Below are positions 21,641-35,186 of a DNA stretch of 42,609 nt, piece after piece (the first letter of the stretch is position 1; every line of letters starts with the position of its first letter). The notes beneath the pieces are model-generated. The model did no database searches and had not been told where the DNA came from. It saw only the letters and a program-made list of their open reading frames with translations. A program made the position numbers and the translations under genes. This stretch comes from Runella sp. (GTDB lineage: Bacteria > Bacteroidota > Bacteroidia > Cytophagales > Spirosomataceae), in NCBI GenBank assembly GCA_023254175.1, contig JALQYJ010000032.1, positions 1 to 42,609 of the forward strand. The letters are read 5' to 3'.

Positions 21641-22729
21641 GGCAAAAGCCTCCAAAACTTGCTTCTTAAGCGCGACTTCTTCTAAATGGGCTAGAAAAAG
21701 AGTTGGCGTTTGATGACACCACCGCTGAAACTCGTCTTGCGGGGAAACGTGTTTAGGGAGGTAGTCGAGAAGCAGCGACAAGTCAAATTCTTCGGCGGCA
21801 ATCCCAGCCCCTGCCCGTTGTGCATCGAGGGCGTTGCAGGACTGTTCGTAGTGCGCAGGAACCATCAAAGCAGGTTTCCCAAGGTACATCGCTTCGCAGA
21901 CCGACTCAAACCCTGCCGTCGTCATCAATGCCGTACAGCGTGCCATCATCTCTAAAAACTTAGCACCATCCACTTGATGAAAAGTCAGCGTATCGTCAAA
22001 TGCACAGTCGGGTTGGTTCCAAAAACAGTGCAAATGCACTTCGGGATGCTGTAAATGCCACTCAATCAAGGTTTTACTCATGGTGGCGTAGGTGATATAA
22101 ACCAGAAAAAAAGGTTCTTGGGTGGGGGTTAGCGCTTTGACCGCCCCACGAAGAAGGGGCGGGACGGTCACGATGCGGTGGTGAGTAGAAGTAGCAGTGG
22201 GATAAAACGAAAGAGCCAGCAGTTTTTGAGCCCGTACCGCCGTAAGGCGCGTATTGATTTTTAACAACCAATGGTTTAAACTGAGTTTGACAGGAAATGT
22301 AAAATCGTTACGCAAAAATAAATAATGGTGCCCAACGGCCACAATCGGAACCGCAGGCCGATACGTTAGCGCGTACAAACCACCAAGAACATCGTAAAAA
22401 TTAACGATGACGTCGGGCTGATAACGCTGGACGTGGGCATGAACGGCTTTGAGGCTTTTGACGTAGAGAGGAATCCGAAAAAGATGATGCGTAATCGTTT
22501 TGGAAAAACTAATCCCCCGTTTTCCCATAATCAAGTGTGGGCTGTTAAAAGGATAAATGTCAGCGGGAAAAGAATCGTAAAAGAAAGAAGGTAGTTGCCG
22601 TCCTTTGCCAATTCCGACTAGTCCAGCCACGACTTCGTGACCATTGTCTCGCAGCAACTGAGCCAGCGAAATAGCTTGGGTCAAGTGGCCTCGACCTTCG
22701 CCTTGGATAATAAACAGAAATTTACTCAC
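21638..22729 (-). CDS. GT-B glycosyltransferase (MurG/UDP-glycosyltransferase-like)
   Basis: 363-aa protein beginning MSKFLFIIQGEGRGHLTQAI, the N-terminal Gly loop of GT28-like glycosyltransferases. The C-terminal donor-binding half contains LMTTAGFESVCEAMYLGKPA LMVPAHYEQSCNA, the usual nucleotide-sugar site. Donor and acceptor are unknown. The start is GTG at 22729, overlapping the stop of the upstream phosphoesterase gene (GTGA), so the two are translationally coupled. The partner's similarity to LpxH suggests work on an envelope glycolipid, which is inference. Confidence 0.8.
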   Translation of the reverse strand: MSKFLFIIQGEGRGHLTQAISLAQLLRDNGHEVVAGLVGIGKGRQLPSFFYDSFPADIYPFNSPHLIMGKRGISFSKTITHHLFRIPLYVKSLKAVHAHVQRYQPDVIVNFYDVLGGLYALTYRPAVPIVAVGHHYLFLRNDFTFPVKLSLNHWLLKINTRLTAVRAQKLLALSFYPTATSTHHRIVTVPPLLRGAVKALTPTQEPFFLVYITYATMSKTLIEWHLQHPEVHLHCFWNQPDCAFDDTLTFHQVDGAKFLEMMARCTALMTTAGFESVCEAMYLGKPALMVPAHYEQSCNALDAQRAGAGIAAEEFDLSLLLDYLPKHVSPQDEFQRWCHQTPTLFLAHLEEVALKKQVLEAFA

Positions 22730-31106: not shown

Positions 31107-31667
31107 TTAAGGAGCGAGTGTCAGAGGAAAAGTGACGTTTACATCATCGCTACCAGGGGTAACCGTTCCATTTTTTACAGGCTGACCGTTAACAGGTGGC
31201 TGATGGCGAAGTTGCACTTTGAGGGTTCCCGTGCTAGCAGAACCTGTTACTAAAGTACCTGTCAAACCGATAGGGAAGTTACGGCTGTCTTTGTCGGTAG
31301 CAGTATAGGTAAATAAGCTAGATGCACTTGGAGTAACTACTACCAAGTGTTCGTCGGCTTCACTCAGAATTTCACTGGTTTTATTTTCAGCAGGAGTTTT
31401 ACTTTCATCCAAAAACTCCACTTCAAGTTTGTACGTACGACTTGTGCGTAGAGAAATAGGACTAATTGTGGGTACCGTACCTCCGTCGCCATCCAAATCT
31501 TTCCATGTAAAAGTCTGGGCTGTCGTAGTACCGTTTTCGGTAAACTTCAAACGTACCGTTGTGATTAATTCGTTTTCGTCTTCGGGAGCAGGGGCTTCTT
31601 TTTTACAGCTACCAAGCATAACTACCAAAGCAAGCAAAACGAGGAGTCGGGTGTGTACAAGTGACAT
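31107..31667 (-). CDS. Lipoprotein of the zinc locus
   Basis: 186-aa predicted lipoprotein: MSLVHTRLLVLLALVVMLGS then CKKEAPAPEDE, with a lipobox ending in Cys21. The mature part is beta-rich (TTVRLKFTENGTTTAQTFTWKDLDGDG, TYKLEVEFLDESKTPAENKT), with ADEHLVVV and a terminal LRHQPPVNGQPVKNG strand pair. I recall similar lipoproteins beside TonB receptors in other Bacteroidota, without a known activity. It follows the COG0523 gene by 28 bases and is likely co-transcribed with it. The frame extends upstream to 31790, but that part overlaps the previous gene and precedes the lipobox start, so 31667 is preferred. A role in metal binding at the outer membrane is inference. Confidence 0.65.
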   Translation of the reverse strand: MSLVHTRLLVLLALVVMLGSCKKEAPAPEDENELITTVRLKFTENGTTTAQTFTWKDLDGDGGTVPTISPISLRTSRTYKLEVEFLDESKTPAENKTSEILSEADEHLVVVTPSASSLFTYTATDKDSRNFPIGLTGTLVTGSASTGTLKVQLRHQPPVNGQPVKNGTVTPGSDDVNVTFPLTLAP

Positions 31668-31695
31668 AGTTTGTTTAATAAAATAAGTGAAATAG

Positions 31696-32676
31696 TTATA
31701 GTACAGGGAACGGGTCAAAAAAGCGCTCATTAGCCTCCATTTTCTTAATTTCGGCTTCAGTGCAAAGGCATGCCATAAGTTCTTGCTCAATGGCTTTGGG
31801 GTTTAAATCTTGTCCAATAATCACAAGTTCGTTTTGACGGTCGCCAAAGCGCTTGTCCCATTTATTTTCGATGAGCTTTTGATTCGAAACGTAAGCTGAA
31901 TACCGAATTCGCTGGTTAAAAGGCATACTACACCCCGCGCTTTCGACGCGGAGGGAGCCGCTCCAGTTGATGGCTTTGTCGTAGTCAAAAAGGCCCGTAT
32001 TTAGAATAGTGGAAAGAGGTACTTTGCCAAAAGTCGTTGGAATAATTTTCGCAACGGGGTTTAAAGACTTGATGATGGCGGTCAACTCTTGCAGTTGTTC
32101 TTTGGTAACCAAGTCTGTTTTGTTCAATAAAATGATGTCGGCAAACTCAATTTGATCAGTCAACAAGTTGACAATCGTCCGATAATCTTGTGGGTCTTCA
32201 GTGAGTTGACGTGTTTGAAGTGTATCCACCGAACCAAAATCTTTGGCAAAATTGAAGGCATCCACCACCGTGACCATGCTGTCGATTTGTGCCCATTTAG
32301 ACAAATCAATGCCGTTTTCTTCGTCCAAAAACGTGAAAGTTTGCGCCACGGGAACAGGTTCAGAAATCCCTGTGCTTTCAATGAGCAGGTAGTCAAAACG
32401 GTTTTCTTTGGCCAATCGCTCTACTTCTATCATCAAATCTTCCCTGAGTGTACAACAAATACAACCATTTGACATTTCAACGAGTTTTTCTTCAGTGCGA
32501 GAAAGGGTATTTTCTTTCGCTACCAGTTGGGCGTCGATATTGACCTCACTCATATCGTTCACAATGACTGCGACTTTAAGTCCTTCTTTGTTGTGAAGTA
32601 CATGGTTGAGTAGGGTCGTTTTGCCTGCCCCTAAAAAACCTGATAGCACGGTTACGGGCAACTTTTTCTGTGTCAT
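31696..32676 (-). CDS. COG0523 (CobW-like) GTPase, probable zinc metallochaperone
   Basis: 326-aa G3E GTPase. The Walker A motif GFLGAGKT is at residues 13-20. The metal-binding CxCC motif ([12 protein letters not shown]) is at 69-80, with Cys72, Cys74 and Cys75. ESTGISEP and LNKTDLV follow, and a CobW C-terminal domain ends the protein. COG0523 proteins under Zur control (for example YeiR, ZagA and related) deliver zinc to essential enzymes in zinc shortage. Two palindromes of the Zur-like type flank its promoter. I chose ATG 32676 (MTQKKLPVT): the upstream ATGs at 32697 and 32715 lie in or at the operator. First gene of an operon with the lipoprotein. Confidence 0.85.
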
Positions 32677-32688
32677 TAATGCGATTTT

Positions 32689-32705
32689 TTGCAACATTGA
32701 TGCAA
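32689..32705. promoter_or_regulatory. Zur-like operator, site B
   Basis: TTGCAACATTGATGCAA, a TTGCA-N7-TGCAA palindrome. It overlaps the 3' half of the -7 box and the predicted transcript start of the COG0523 gene. Confidence 0.65.
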
Positions 32706-32710
32706 ATGTA
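32703..32710 (-). promoter_or_regulatory. -7 box of the COG0523-lipoprotein operon
   Basis: Minus strand TACATTTG, exact TAnnTTTG match, between operator sites A and B. The -33 region lies under site A. Confidence 0.55.
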
Positions 32711-32723
32711 ATCAAAATTTTAT

Positions 32724-32740
32724 TTGCATCAGTGTTGCAA
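32724..32740. promoter_or_regulatory. Zur-like operator, site A
   Basis: TTGCATCAGTGTTGCAA, the same TTGCA-N7-TGCAA palindrome, centred 35 bp upstream of site B and covering the -33 region of the COG0523 promoter. Confidence 0.65.
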
Positions 32741-32772
32741 TTAACTTTTGAGCAGAATTTTTTGCGGAGGAA

Positions 32773-35148
32773 TTAAAACGTATAGCGAAGTTTCAGGGAG
32801 ATGTTGCGGCCTTGTTCGGTTGCAAAGTAGCGAAACCGATTGAGGTAATCACGGTACGAAGTATTAAGGGCGTTTTGAACCGAAAAAGCCCAATGTAATT
32901 GGGAAGGCCCTTTGAGAGAAAGTGCCCCACCCACGTTGAAATTCCACAAATGATAAGCTGATGGAGAATCCATAAAATCACTTTTAGGCGGTACGCGTCG
33001 CTGTTTATCCACCCAAAGGTGACTGAGTATCACATAGGTATCTTTGGACGAAAACACTTTCCCAAAGCTCCAACGCAGTTTGTTTTCGATGCGATTGGCT
33101 GGAATAAGGACTAAATACCCCTGCTCGCGGCGATCGTAAGCGCGCAAATAAGAAAATTTTAAGTTATGAGAAAAACGTTGTGGGATGACATCCCACTGAG
33201 TATCAAGGTCAAATCCCGTAAAAGTAGCGTCGGTTTGGGTGTATTTAAAATAGGGGAACGCGCCACGAATGGTCAGAATGGGTTCGGCTTGGGGTTTTAG
33301 GTAAATAAAATCGGAGATTTGGTTGTGATACATTCCCAATTCCCCCTTAAAACGTTGGCTAGTATATTCCACACTTCCGATGAGGTTGTAAGCTACTTCG
33401 GGGCGCAGGGTTTCGTCGCCTTCTTCGTACGAAGCTGCTCCGTGATGAACGCCTTTGCTGTATAATTCATTGGGCGTGGGGGGGCGCCAAGCTGTTCCAA
33501 AATTGGCTCGAAATGACAACTTTTCGTTGGGGGTATGAACTACACCAACAGTACCAGAGCCATTATTAAATGAATGGTGGCGTGGGTCAGGCACGGTACC
33601 AACGAAGCGAAAAACATCCAATTGACGCCAATCAAAACGAGCGCCAGCTTCCAATTCCCAGCGTTGAAATACCCAACGTTCTAACCCAAAAATTCCGATA
33701 TTGGTTTGCTCAAAATCAGGGATAAGTGGCCGACCATCCGTAAAATTATACTGGTATAACCCAGTAAGTCCCAGTTGTCCATTCATTTTGCCGTTTCCAA
33801 GTGGCTTGTGGTCAAGAACAAGGTCGCTGGTAAGTGTAGTGATGCGAAATAACAACGCAGGGTTAGTGGCTGCTTGTGGGCCATGCAAGTCGTATTCAGC
33901 TCGGCGGTTAAATTGCCGCCCGATGGTCCAGCTCAGTCGGTTGCCGTTAAAATTATAATATGCTTTTCCTTTGAGAAGGTTGTGGCGAATGAATTGGTTG
34001 GGGCGTTCGATGTTACGGGTAAAGCCTGTTTTGATGAAAGGCTCTCCGTTTTGGATGACCTTCAATAAATCGGACGTACTTCCAATGTGCGATCCCGAAA
34101 AAATACCAATGTTGCTGTCAAATTGACTAAAAAACGCCTCAACGCCCACGCGATTATTTCGATAACCTGTGGTAATCGAAAAATTGTTCTCTCGCACGCC
34201 TGTATTAGCCATAAAATAGTCAGGAGTGCGGATATTACCACCGTTCTTAAGAGTGCCTTGAATACGCCACGCCCAACCTTTCCACTGAGGTAATCCTCCT
34301 TGCAATGTACCTGACACCACCCCAATACGGCCGTTGGAAAACGCAGCCGCATTCACTTCGCCACTCAGTTGTGGGCTTTTTGGAAGCTCGTCGGGCTCAA
34401 CCAAAATAACGCCCGCAATGGCGTCAGAACCGTAGCGAACGCCCGCTGCACCTTTCACGACAGTTAGGCGTTTAGCAATAAACGGGTCGATTTCAGGAGC
34501 GTGTTCCGAGCCCCATTGCTGGCCTTCTTGGCGAATGCCATTGTTCATAATAACGACCCGATTGCTGTGTAAGCCGTGAATAACGGGCTTGCTGATGGAG
34601 GCTCCCGTTTGGAGGGTGGTGATGCCCGTGATTCTTTTTAGGGCGTCGCCCAACGTTTCACCACGGGTGAGTTCAAGAGCTTGCCCTTCCAAAAGGCTAC
34701 TTTTCTGGGAAAGAAGCGTTTGAAGGCGTCGAGCTACAATCTCGACATCCTGAAGATGAACTTCGTCTTCGCTCAGGTTGAGATTTTCTTCCGCACTGTG
34801 CTCAAGAACAATGGAGGTTTTAATGACTTTATAGCCAACGATTCGGCATTCAAGAGTGTATTTCCCTTGGCAAATATTGCTGATTTTATATCGACCAGCG
34901 GTGTCGGTTGTAGTAAAAAGAGGAGTACCTTCGATGCGTAAAATAGCCCCAACGATGGGTAGACGAGTTTCACGGTCTTTAACCACTCCTTTGATGAGGC
35001 AGTGACAATCTTTCGGAGTTTGCGCGTAAGCGAAATGAAACAATAAAAAAAGAACCCATCCAGCAAAGAATTGATACTGCCAACGGCGTCTTGGGCGTAC
35101 TGAGTATAGTGGGAATATTAGGTAAGGCAGAAGTTTTTTTTTATTCAT
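32773..35148 (-). CDS. TonB-dependent receptor, probable zinc uptake (ZnuD-like)
   Basis: 791-aa outer-membrane receptor. A basic N-terminus and hydrophobic signal end at FAYAQ (about residue 43). A carboxypeptidase-regulatory-like domain follows (about 50-125: CLIKGVVKDRETRLPIVGAI), then a plug (LSQKSSLLEGQALELTRGET LGDALKRITGI... HGLHSNRVVIMNNGIRQEGQ) and a 22-strand-type barrel ending in Phe (ISLKLRYTF). The plug resembles neisserial ZnuD (LGDAL..I.GI; DP/HAPEIDPF..KRL.VVKG), which takes up zinc. No SusD partner is present, against a glycan role. Its promoter carries the same palindrome as the COG0523 gene. Start ATG 35148; the ATG at 35157 lies within the -7 box. Confidence 0.82.
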   Translation of the reverse strand: MNKKKLLPYLIFPLYSVRPRRRWQYQFFAGWVLFLLFHFAYAQTPKDCHCLIKGVVKDRETRLPIVGAILRIEGTPLFTTTDTAGRYKISNICQGKYTLECRIVGYKVIKTSIVLEHSAEENLNLSEDEVHLQDVEIVARRLQTLLSQKSSLLEGQALELTRGETLGDALKRITGITTLQTGASISKPVIHGLHSNRVVIMNNGIRQEGQQWGSEHAPEIDPFIAKRLTVVKGAAGVRYGSDAIAGVILVEPDELPKSPQLSGEVNAAAFSNGRIGVVSGTLQGGLPQWKGWAWRIQGTLKNGGNIRTPDYFMANTGVRENNFSITTGYRNNRVGVEAFFSQFDSNIGIFSGSHIGSTSDLLKVIQNGEPFIKTGFTRNIERPNQFIRHNLLKGKAYYNFNGNRLSWTIGRQFNRRAEYDLHGPQAATNPALLFRITTLTSDLVLDHKPLGNGKMNGQLGLTGLYQYNFTDGRPLIPDFEQTNIGIFGLERWVFQRWELEAGARFDWRQLDVFRFVGTVPDPRHHSFNNGSGTVGVVHTPNEKLSFRANFGTAWRPPTPNELYSKGVHHGAASYEEGDETLRPEVAYNLIGSVEYTSQRFKGELGMYHNQISDFIYLKPQAEPILTIRGAFPYFKYTQTDATFTGFDLDTQWDVIPQRFSHNLKFSYLRAYDRREQGYLVLIPANRIENKLRWSFGKVFSSKDTYVILSHLWVDKQRRVPPKSDFMDSPSAYHLWNFNVGGALSLKGPSQLHWAFSVQNALNTSYRDYLNRFRYFATEQGRNISLKLRYTF

Positions 35149-35154
35149 TTTAGA

Positions 35155-35186
35155 CAAAAGTACTTTATTTGCAACAAAGTTGCAAA
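35155..35186 (-). promoter_or_regulatory. Promoter of the TonB receptor gene
   Basis: Minus strand TTTG (35186-35183), 20 nt, TACTTTTG (35162-35155): full consensus. The spacer is filled by operator site C. The -7 box ends only 6 bases before the ATG at 35148, so the mRNA would be almost leaderless. Confidence 0.7.
35169..35185. promoter_or_regulatory. Zur-like operator, site C
   Basis: TTGCAACAAAGTTGCAA, a near-perfect palindrome of the TTGCA-N7-TGCAA type, lying between the -33 and -7 boxes of the receptor promoter where a bound repressor would exclude RNA polymerase. Confidence 0.7.

Follow-up and report, generated by a model that had tools for sequence, protein, structure and literature searches.

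Gene content of the locus

The locus described here lies in a stretch of 42,609 nucleotides from Runella sp. (the window, contig C22 of a host genome of 4.85 Mb in 199 contigs) and comprises three genes on the minus strand. The first encodes a ZnuD-like TonB-dependent receptor (32773..35148) with Pfam plug and barrel domains, whose likely start is the ATG at 35148, a minor correction to the initial annotation. Its closest solved relative is ZnuD (4rdr, E 3.6e-17), which agrees with the earlier description as ZnuD-like; the second-best is the copper receptor OprC. The NCBIfam ZnuD cut-off is not reached by the receptor (126.9 bits vs 950), and a general heme-receptor model of the same collection scores somewhat above the ZnuD model (132.8 bits). 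Moreover, the protein carries an extra N-terminal carboxypeptidase-regulatory-like domain.

The second gene, cobW (31696..32676), encodes a COG0523/ZigA-like GTPase of 326 aa, which is matched by Pfam cobW with 196.8 bits and has ZigA as its best NCBIfam model (425.5 bits, cut-off 600); a full-length relative reaches 569.5 bits with ZigA, just under that cut-off. A CobW-like gene with a CxCC metal motif had been proposed at this position, and the motif is present as GCICC. The window gene is shorter than its relatives (326 vs about 404 codons). Alignment with Runella limosa and Runella defluvii shows three in-frame deletions of 72, 3 and 3 codons, 78 aa in total, and in place of an intact CobW C-terminal domain CobW_C is matched in the window protein at positions 61-94 of 94 only. 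The loss of these 78 residues is either natural or an assembly error. The third gene (31107..31667) encodes a lipoprotein with a predicted beta-sandwich and no Pfam family, a recurrent partner of the receptor.

A palindrome overlaps both promoters of the locus

A scan of the whole window found exact matches to TTGCA-N7-TGCAA at 32689-32705 (site A), 32724-32740 (site B) and 35169-35185 (site C). These are the coordinates initially given for them, and there is no further exact match in the window, where one-mismatch matches occur at 22017 and 41119. All three represent a single 17-bp palindrome, TTGCAACA-N-TGTTGCAA, of the form 8-1-8; site A, which reads TTGCAACATTGATGCAA, has one mismatch to the full sequence TTGCAACANTGTTGCAA, and sites B and C are likewise within one mismatch of it. 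Zur boxes are named as 7-1-7 and 9-1-9 palindromes in a review on Zur (PMC6103462).

The receptor gene has a -7 box TACTTTTG (35155..35162, minus strand) and, 20 nt from it, a -33 box TTTG (35183..35186, minus strand). Promoters with -33 and -7 elements are of the Bacteroidota type. The promoter TTTG-N20-TACTTTTG with site C in its spacer had been predicted and is confirmed here, with the refinement that, on the minus strand, the start of site C falls within the TTTG, so that the palindrome lies over both the -33 element and the spacer. At cobW, sites A (proximal) and B (distal, 35 bp from site A) had been described as flanking the -7 box. Site B does lie upstream of it; site A overlaps the box TACATTTG (32703..32710, minus strand) by 3 nt. 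A clean -33 TTTG is absent from this promoter, and the -33 position lies inside site B.

The same 3-nt overlap between TAnnTTTG and the proximal cobW site was observed in eight of the 14 relatives listed. Three more have TAnnTTTG on the distal or sole site, which brings those with an overlap to 11, and near the cobW sites of the remaining three (L036, L039 and L046) there is none. Paired sites also recur in relatives, 39-40 bp apart in 30 of the 49 neighbouring pairs under 70 bp. This geometry of sites and promoter elements would fit a blocking of RNA polymerase.

Specificity of the palindrome in the host genome

A genome-wide scan had been suggested as a check; taken together with scans of other genomes, the outcome was favourable to the Zur reading. 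TTGCA-N7-TGCAA occurs at 14 places in the host genome vs 4 for the reversed-pattern control, and eight of the 11 matches outside the window are inside ORFs; since the loose form alone is therefore unspecific, this 10-base motif was dropped as a definition of the regulon and the full palindrome was used. With at most one mismatch, TTGCAACANTGTTGCAA is found at the three window sites only, and two more places are added at up to two mismatches. If the rate is taken from the remaining genome, three loose sites in one 42.6-kb contig have a Poisson probability of about 1.4e-4, a post hoc figure. At three mismatches the full palindrome gave 24 forward matches vs 29 in the control, that is, no excess, and weak sites therefore cannot be called in the host genome.

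Genes linked to the palindrome across relatives

A degenerate form of the motif was found 133 times in 59 genomes vs 16 times for the reversed control. Outside called ORFs lie 157 of the 170 distinct sites examined; because the loci were mostly chosen by motif, neither this proportion nor the following counts of neighbouring genes are independent evidence. When the genes beside the 157 intergenic sites were clustered, the largest classes were MerC (26 loci), CobW (21), TonB receptor (20) and lipoprotein (14), followed by a thioredoxin-reductase-like class (11), Zur-like (10), MerT-HMA (8), AztD-like (7) and a divergent oxidoreductase class (7), called Gfo/Idh by eye only. None of these nine recurrent classes stands beside 16 of the 157 sites. 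Class representatives match MerC (PF03203) and, for the ZIP transporter, PF02535; the match to the zinc chaperone AztD reaches 81.9 bits, under the cut-off of 400, and the MerT-HMA representative matches a MerTP-like fusion with 27.9 bits (cut-off 180), together with a weak HMA match. Ribosomal-protein paralogues had been named as possible targets; none turned up among the clustered neighbour genes, where the clusters were named from scanned proteins and are not exhaustive.

A further, less biased set of loci was chosen by gene, namely by cobW, lipoprotein, MerC, ZIP, ZnuA, MerT-HMA and, as a control, Fur; it agreed with the picture obtained from the motif. CobW relatives were detected in 65 of 149 genomes, the host included (threshold 1e-60), and 28 of the 29 cobW loci fetched from relatives, each consisting of the match plus up to 1.5 kb on each side, contain the palindrome at up to three mismatches. 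A site lies within 400 bp upstream of MerC in 26 of the 30 loci fetched and precedes MerT-HMA in all 16 of its loci; three of four ZIP loci contain a site. The palindrome also precedes the receptor orthologues in other Runella; in R. limosa and R. defluvii the receptor sites are 3 positions off the consensus.

Several other genes were observed beside sites. Seven loci (among those named, L179 at G010:C1:1904300-1909300, L146, L149 and L155) have, under sites, a lipoprotein some 400 aa long; its member L146 matches AztD. A thioredoxin-reductase-like flavoprotein of 302 aa, with no evident zinc role, stands under the palindrome in 11 loci, L177, L182, L183 and L191 among them. A small protein of 144-168 aa, with the motif CFFCG in the four members printed, recurs beside sites in L034, L035, L038, L043 and L180; member L034 had no match in Pfam and NCBIfam scans, and the label DUF3299 was dropped for this protein. 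Finally, in two loci from other families of the order (L064 and L142) palindromes precede genes for a CtlX hydrolase and a formimidoylglutamase-like protein, again with no evident zinc role; L064 has a cobW gene on the other side of the palindrome.

A Zur-like protein as candidate regulator

The presence of a Fur-family gene in the genome had been named as a point on which the Zur reading would turn, and one with Zur-type cysteines was found on contig C96 (C96:2117-2524; PF01475 FUR domain, 44.4 bits, cut-off 23.1). Matches to this Zur-like protein (L027) occur in 131 of 149 genomes, the host included, at a threshold of 1e-15. Its best NCBIfam model is Zur, with 35.4 bits vs the equivalog cut-off of 167, and its closest solved relative is FurB, labelled as a probable zinc uptake regulation protein (3.9e-7); in a profile of the wider group, PerR and Fur structures rank above Zur structures. 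The cysteine of its YALC stretch aligns with that of YVLC in E. coli Zur (4mtd); it is kept in the eight closest members of alignment A2 and is missing in the Fur paralogue L026. In E. coli Zur this cysteine, in the DNA-binding domain, is a ligand of the sensory site. The Runella protein and the autoregulated Zur-like orthologues described below are identical over the stretch DRVTIYRTLKTF, which presumably sits in the DNA-reading helix. Four further cysteines, C95, C98, C131 and C134, form two CxxC pairs that are invariant in the alignment. The Zur review describes such a structural Cys4 site with two CxxC pairs and names a Cys, unnumbered, in the sensory site (PMC6103462); the Cys4 site is not specific to Zur because other Fur-family members have it too.

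The expectation that the palindrome would also be found before zur held outside Runella and failed inside it. Among 30 Zur-like loci fetched, the palindrome lies upstream of the gene in 11 of the 17 from outside Runella, with one more locus (L105) that has it only downstream, and at the orthologous gene in none of the 13 Runella loci; the shuffled-sequence control gave 0.3 hits over all 30 loci. Seven loci outside Runella (L102, L103, L107, L110, L111, L114 and L118) have the Zur-like gene clustered together with MerC, receptor and lipoprotein. The ordinary Fur gene (L026), which served as a control, has no site in any of 30 loci and was therefore rejected as the regulator. Furthermore, presence of the Zur-like gene goes with presence of the motif: the mean number of palindrome hits per genome is 2.6 in the 50 genomes with the gene vs 0.33 in the nine without it, and at least one hit is found in 43 of the former and two of the latter (Mann-Whitney p = 3e-4 over 59 genomes, not corrected for relatedness).

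Two other Fur-family genes were noted. One Runella genome, G010, has a second Zur-like paralogue (L180, G010:C1:3285000-3293000) with FLLR instead of the YALC cysteine and two sites upstream of it; the same locus contains a receptor as well as a ZIP gene with a site of its own. In the host, a third Fur-family fragment (L028, C148:15594-17228) lies beside an NhaA-like antiporter, so named by eye; it runs off the contig end, may represent foreign DNA or contamination, and was set aside.

Zinc-type genes elsewhere in the host and its family

A fourth site of the host genome, TTGCAATACAGTTGCAA at C132:104855-104871, has two mismatches and lies immediately before a MerT-HMA gene (181 aa), which is followed by a gene for a His-rich lipoprotein (162 aa) containing HEHHHEGEEHHHDH. 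All 13 Runella genomes searched have a MerT-HMA gene with a site just upstream. The host also has a ZIP gene, on contig C36, where the palindrome was not found at up to three mismatches.

The znuABC genes had been expected among the targets. The search for ZnuA (PF01297) gave no match in the 37 genomes that it covered in the host's family, a few of which are under 90% complete, and the apparent absence of ZnuABC is read from ZnuA. The gene is present in 15 of 22 searched genomes of other families, with 16 matches. Four of these loci were fetched and none has a convincing palindrome, a single weak match with 3 mismatches being the nearest, and ZnuA was rejected as a target.

The distribution of the two Mer-type proteins in the family is complementary. 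MerC (Pfam, E 0.001) is found in 21 of the 37 genomes and MerT-HMA (E 1e-8) in the other 16, where two of the matches are weak (29 and 33% identity); at these thresholds no genome has both and none has neither. For 20 of the 21 MerC loci of the family, a site is located no more than 400 bp ahead of the gene; in the remaining one (G024) MerC is preceded by a lipoprotein gene, and the site lies upstream of the latter. That two different small membrane proteins stand under the operator and strictly exclude each other suggests one shared job for them, and since ZnuABC is apparently missing, zinc import across the inner membrane is the obvious candidate. The Mer-type protein may thus be an inner-membrane zinc importer. 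Two observations count against this: some family genomes, the host's included, have ZIP proteins, and ZnuA and MerC occur together in six genomes of other families. The MerC-type protein could alternatively act in export, sensing or chaperoning. We consider the chances about even that the Zur regulon of the Spirosomataceae serves a zinc uptake free of ZnuABC, with the ZnuD-like receptor and the lipoprotein at the outer membrane and a Mer-type protein at the inner membrane; MerT-HMA would then be a non-orthologous replacement of MerC in Runella and a few others.

A lipoprotein family paired with the receptor

In the initial annotation the lipoprotein was put forward as a possible new part of the zinc system, and its recurrence speaks for this. 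Besides 14 homologues (33-60% identity) immediately 3' of the palindrome, relatives were found 322 times in named genomes, and the best 80 loci were retained (one of them, L265, repeats the contig region of L260). These best 80 of 322 loci span Runella, Larkinella, Dyadobacter, Emticicia, Arcicella, Siphonobacter, Hymenobacter and others, and 65 of them have a site upstream of the lipoprotein gene or of the preceding receptor gene. No such site was found in the other 15, nine of which are from Hymenobacter; L242 and L243 lack a site upstream of the lipoprotein, yet have sites elsewhere in the locus. Over the 0.90 Mb of the 80 loci, the palindrome occurs 143 times at up to three mismatches vs 8 times for the reversed control. 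A receptor gene lies within 2 kb upstream of the lipoprotein gene in 44 of the 80 loci and directly downstream in five. On this conservation, the lipoprotein is a real and recurrent member of the predicted gene set, usually paired with the receptor.

In the window, R. limosa (L225), R. defluvii (L226), L233 and L235, the receptor and lipoprotein genes are separated by cobW and its one or more sites, and in six other Runella loci (L227-L232) the two are adjacent under one site. Given these four loci with cobW interposed and six with an adjacent pair, the receptor-lipoprotein pair therefore looks like the common unit and cobW like an insertion.

The structure model of the lipoprotein has a confident beta-rich fold (pLDDT 89.8). 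A PDB fold search with it found nothing at E 0.001 or better and weak beta-sandwich matches only, and the sequence profile matched a collagen adhesin weakly (1.6e-6), which we took as a hint on the fold only. Pfam matches among 52 members are weak and scattered, any one of them being shared by at most three. Residues invariant in the 52 sequences include Cys21, Asp57, His107, Asp125, Asp127, His155 and Asp175. We propose that the lipoprotein binds zinc or a zinc carrier on behalf of the receptor.

Discussion

Our comparative approach indicates that TTGCAACA-N-TGTTGCAA is very probably the operator of a Zur-type Fur-family repressor, the C96 protein, which would act by zinc-dependent repression. 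The computational observations are the sites, their conservation and placement on promoters, what the linked genes are, and the connection with the Zur-like gene; from these we infer binding by the C96 protein, zinc as co-repressor and a repressive effect. The initial idea of a Zur regulon is thereby strengthened: the palindrome stands at zinc-type genes throughout the family and before the Zur-type gene in other genera, and is absent at ordinary Fur. In the proposed mechanism, the zinc-loaded repressor would bind each palindrome as one dimer. At cobW, site B would place one dimer over the -33 region and site A another over the start point and the -7 box; at the receptor gene, a single dimer on site C would occupy the spacer and the -33 box. 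Both promoters would thereby be shut. When zinc falls, the repressor would be released and the outer-membrane zinc receptor, its lipoprotein partner and the zinc-chaperone GTPase would be made, as would, via the fourth site elsewhere in the genome, the MerT-HMA membrane protein and the His-rich lipoprotein.

A sensor of the Fur family or another metal sensor could instead respond to a metal other than zinc (copper, mercury, cobalt or iron/heme), as the resemblance of MerC and MerT-HMA to mercury transporters, the rank of OprC among the receptor's relatives and the higher score of the heme-receptor model would allow. We regard this as unlikely, since ZigA, AztD, ZIP and ZnuD are zinc-type families, the regulator has the Zur cysteine and the ordinary Fur gene has no site; moreover, the Mer-type genes share their operator with zinc-type genes (26/30 and 16/16), unlike a mercury operon. 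Binding of the palindrome by a regulator other than the C96 protein, for instance Fur or a non-Fur dimeric regulator, is in our view very improbable. It would account for the missing site at the orthologous Zur-like gene in Runella and for the motif hits of G092 (one) and G104 (two), which belong to the nine genomes where no Zur-like protein was matched; however, one of the G104 sites is inside an ORF (L062), and the palindromes that precede the Zur-like gene elsewhere than in Runella, the gene clusters, the co-occurrence of gene and motif, the identity of DRVTIYRTLKTF between the Runella protein and the autoregulated orthologues and the 0/30 Fur loci all favour the C96 protein. An origin of the sites by chance, or as a structural feature such as a repeat in AT-rich promoters, is hardly credible: the 14 occurrences of the loose 10-base form, with eight of the 11 outside the window in ORFs, would suit such an origin, but it is contradicted by the controls, by the recurrence of the sites in different genera, by their placement on promoter elements and by the coherent functions of the genes.

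The proposed Zur regulon can be compared with known systems. The yciC gene of Bacillus subtilis is a COG0523 gene. According to the Zur review, the promoters of B. subtilis yciC and Streptomyces coelicolor znuA have two or more Zur boxes, with one covering the -35 and one the -10 motif (PMC6103462). Palindromic boxes are common to these regulons and the one described here, but the box sequence differs, the promoter is of the Bacteroidota type and ZnuA was not found in the family; on the Runella side the members include MerC or MerT-HMA, an AztD-like protein and the new lipoprotein. Like ZnuD of Neisseria and the Zur-controlled TonB receptors reported for Caulobacter (PMC4176598), the window receptor, which matches ZnuD, is under a putative Zur-like operator; it differs from Neisseria ZnuD in its sub-cut-off score, its extra N-terminal domain and its pairing with a lipoprotein. 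With the COG0523/ZigA zinc GTPases, as Haas 2009 presents them (PMC2770081), the window cobW shares the ZigA model, the CxCC motif and a place downstream of putative Zur sites, but it is without the 78 residues present in its R. limosa and R. defluvii counterparts.

HmuR is a receptor that pairs with the lipoprotein HmuY. The XusA-XusB system likewise joins a TonB receptor, XusA, with a small lipoprotein, XusB (PMC12574912). The receptor-lipoprotein pair of the window has this arrangement in common with both systems, but its ligand is presumed to be zinc, not a siderophore or heme, and its lipoprotein has no family match. In the same phylum, PgFur of Porphyromonas gingivalis is described as forming a Fur subfamily of its own; it is reported to bind the hmu promoter and to have one zinc per monomer, and it did not bind iron or the E. 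coli Fur box (PMC6613475); both it and the Zur-like protein are of the Fur family, and they are likened here by description only.

Zur regulation in the Bacteroidota seems to be hardly described. The word Bacteroidetes is absent from the main text of Haas 2009 (PMC2770081), words beginning with bacteroid are absent from the main text of the Zur review (PMC6103462), and among the full-text literature matches listed no title or opening of an abstract names a Bacteroidota operator of this kind. The Zur interpretation is strongly supported by the sequence comparisons made here; what appears new is that this regulon uses an operator of its own and that, while ZnuABC is apparently missing, its members include Mer-type transporters and a lipoprotein not described before.

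Overall, our analysis opens each predicted gene of a whole family to testing, by providing a concrete operator sequence together with its probable regulator and a list of targets, and offers a first functional hypothesis for the lipoprotein family. Moreover, it poses a sharp question for the Spirosomataceae: how scarce zinc passes the inner membrane in a family apparently without ZnuABC, and whether the MerC/MerT-type “mercury” transporters may really be zinc importers.
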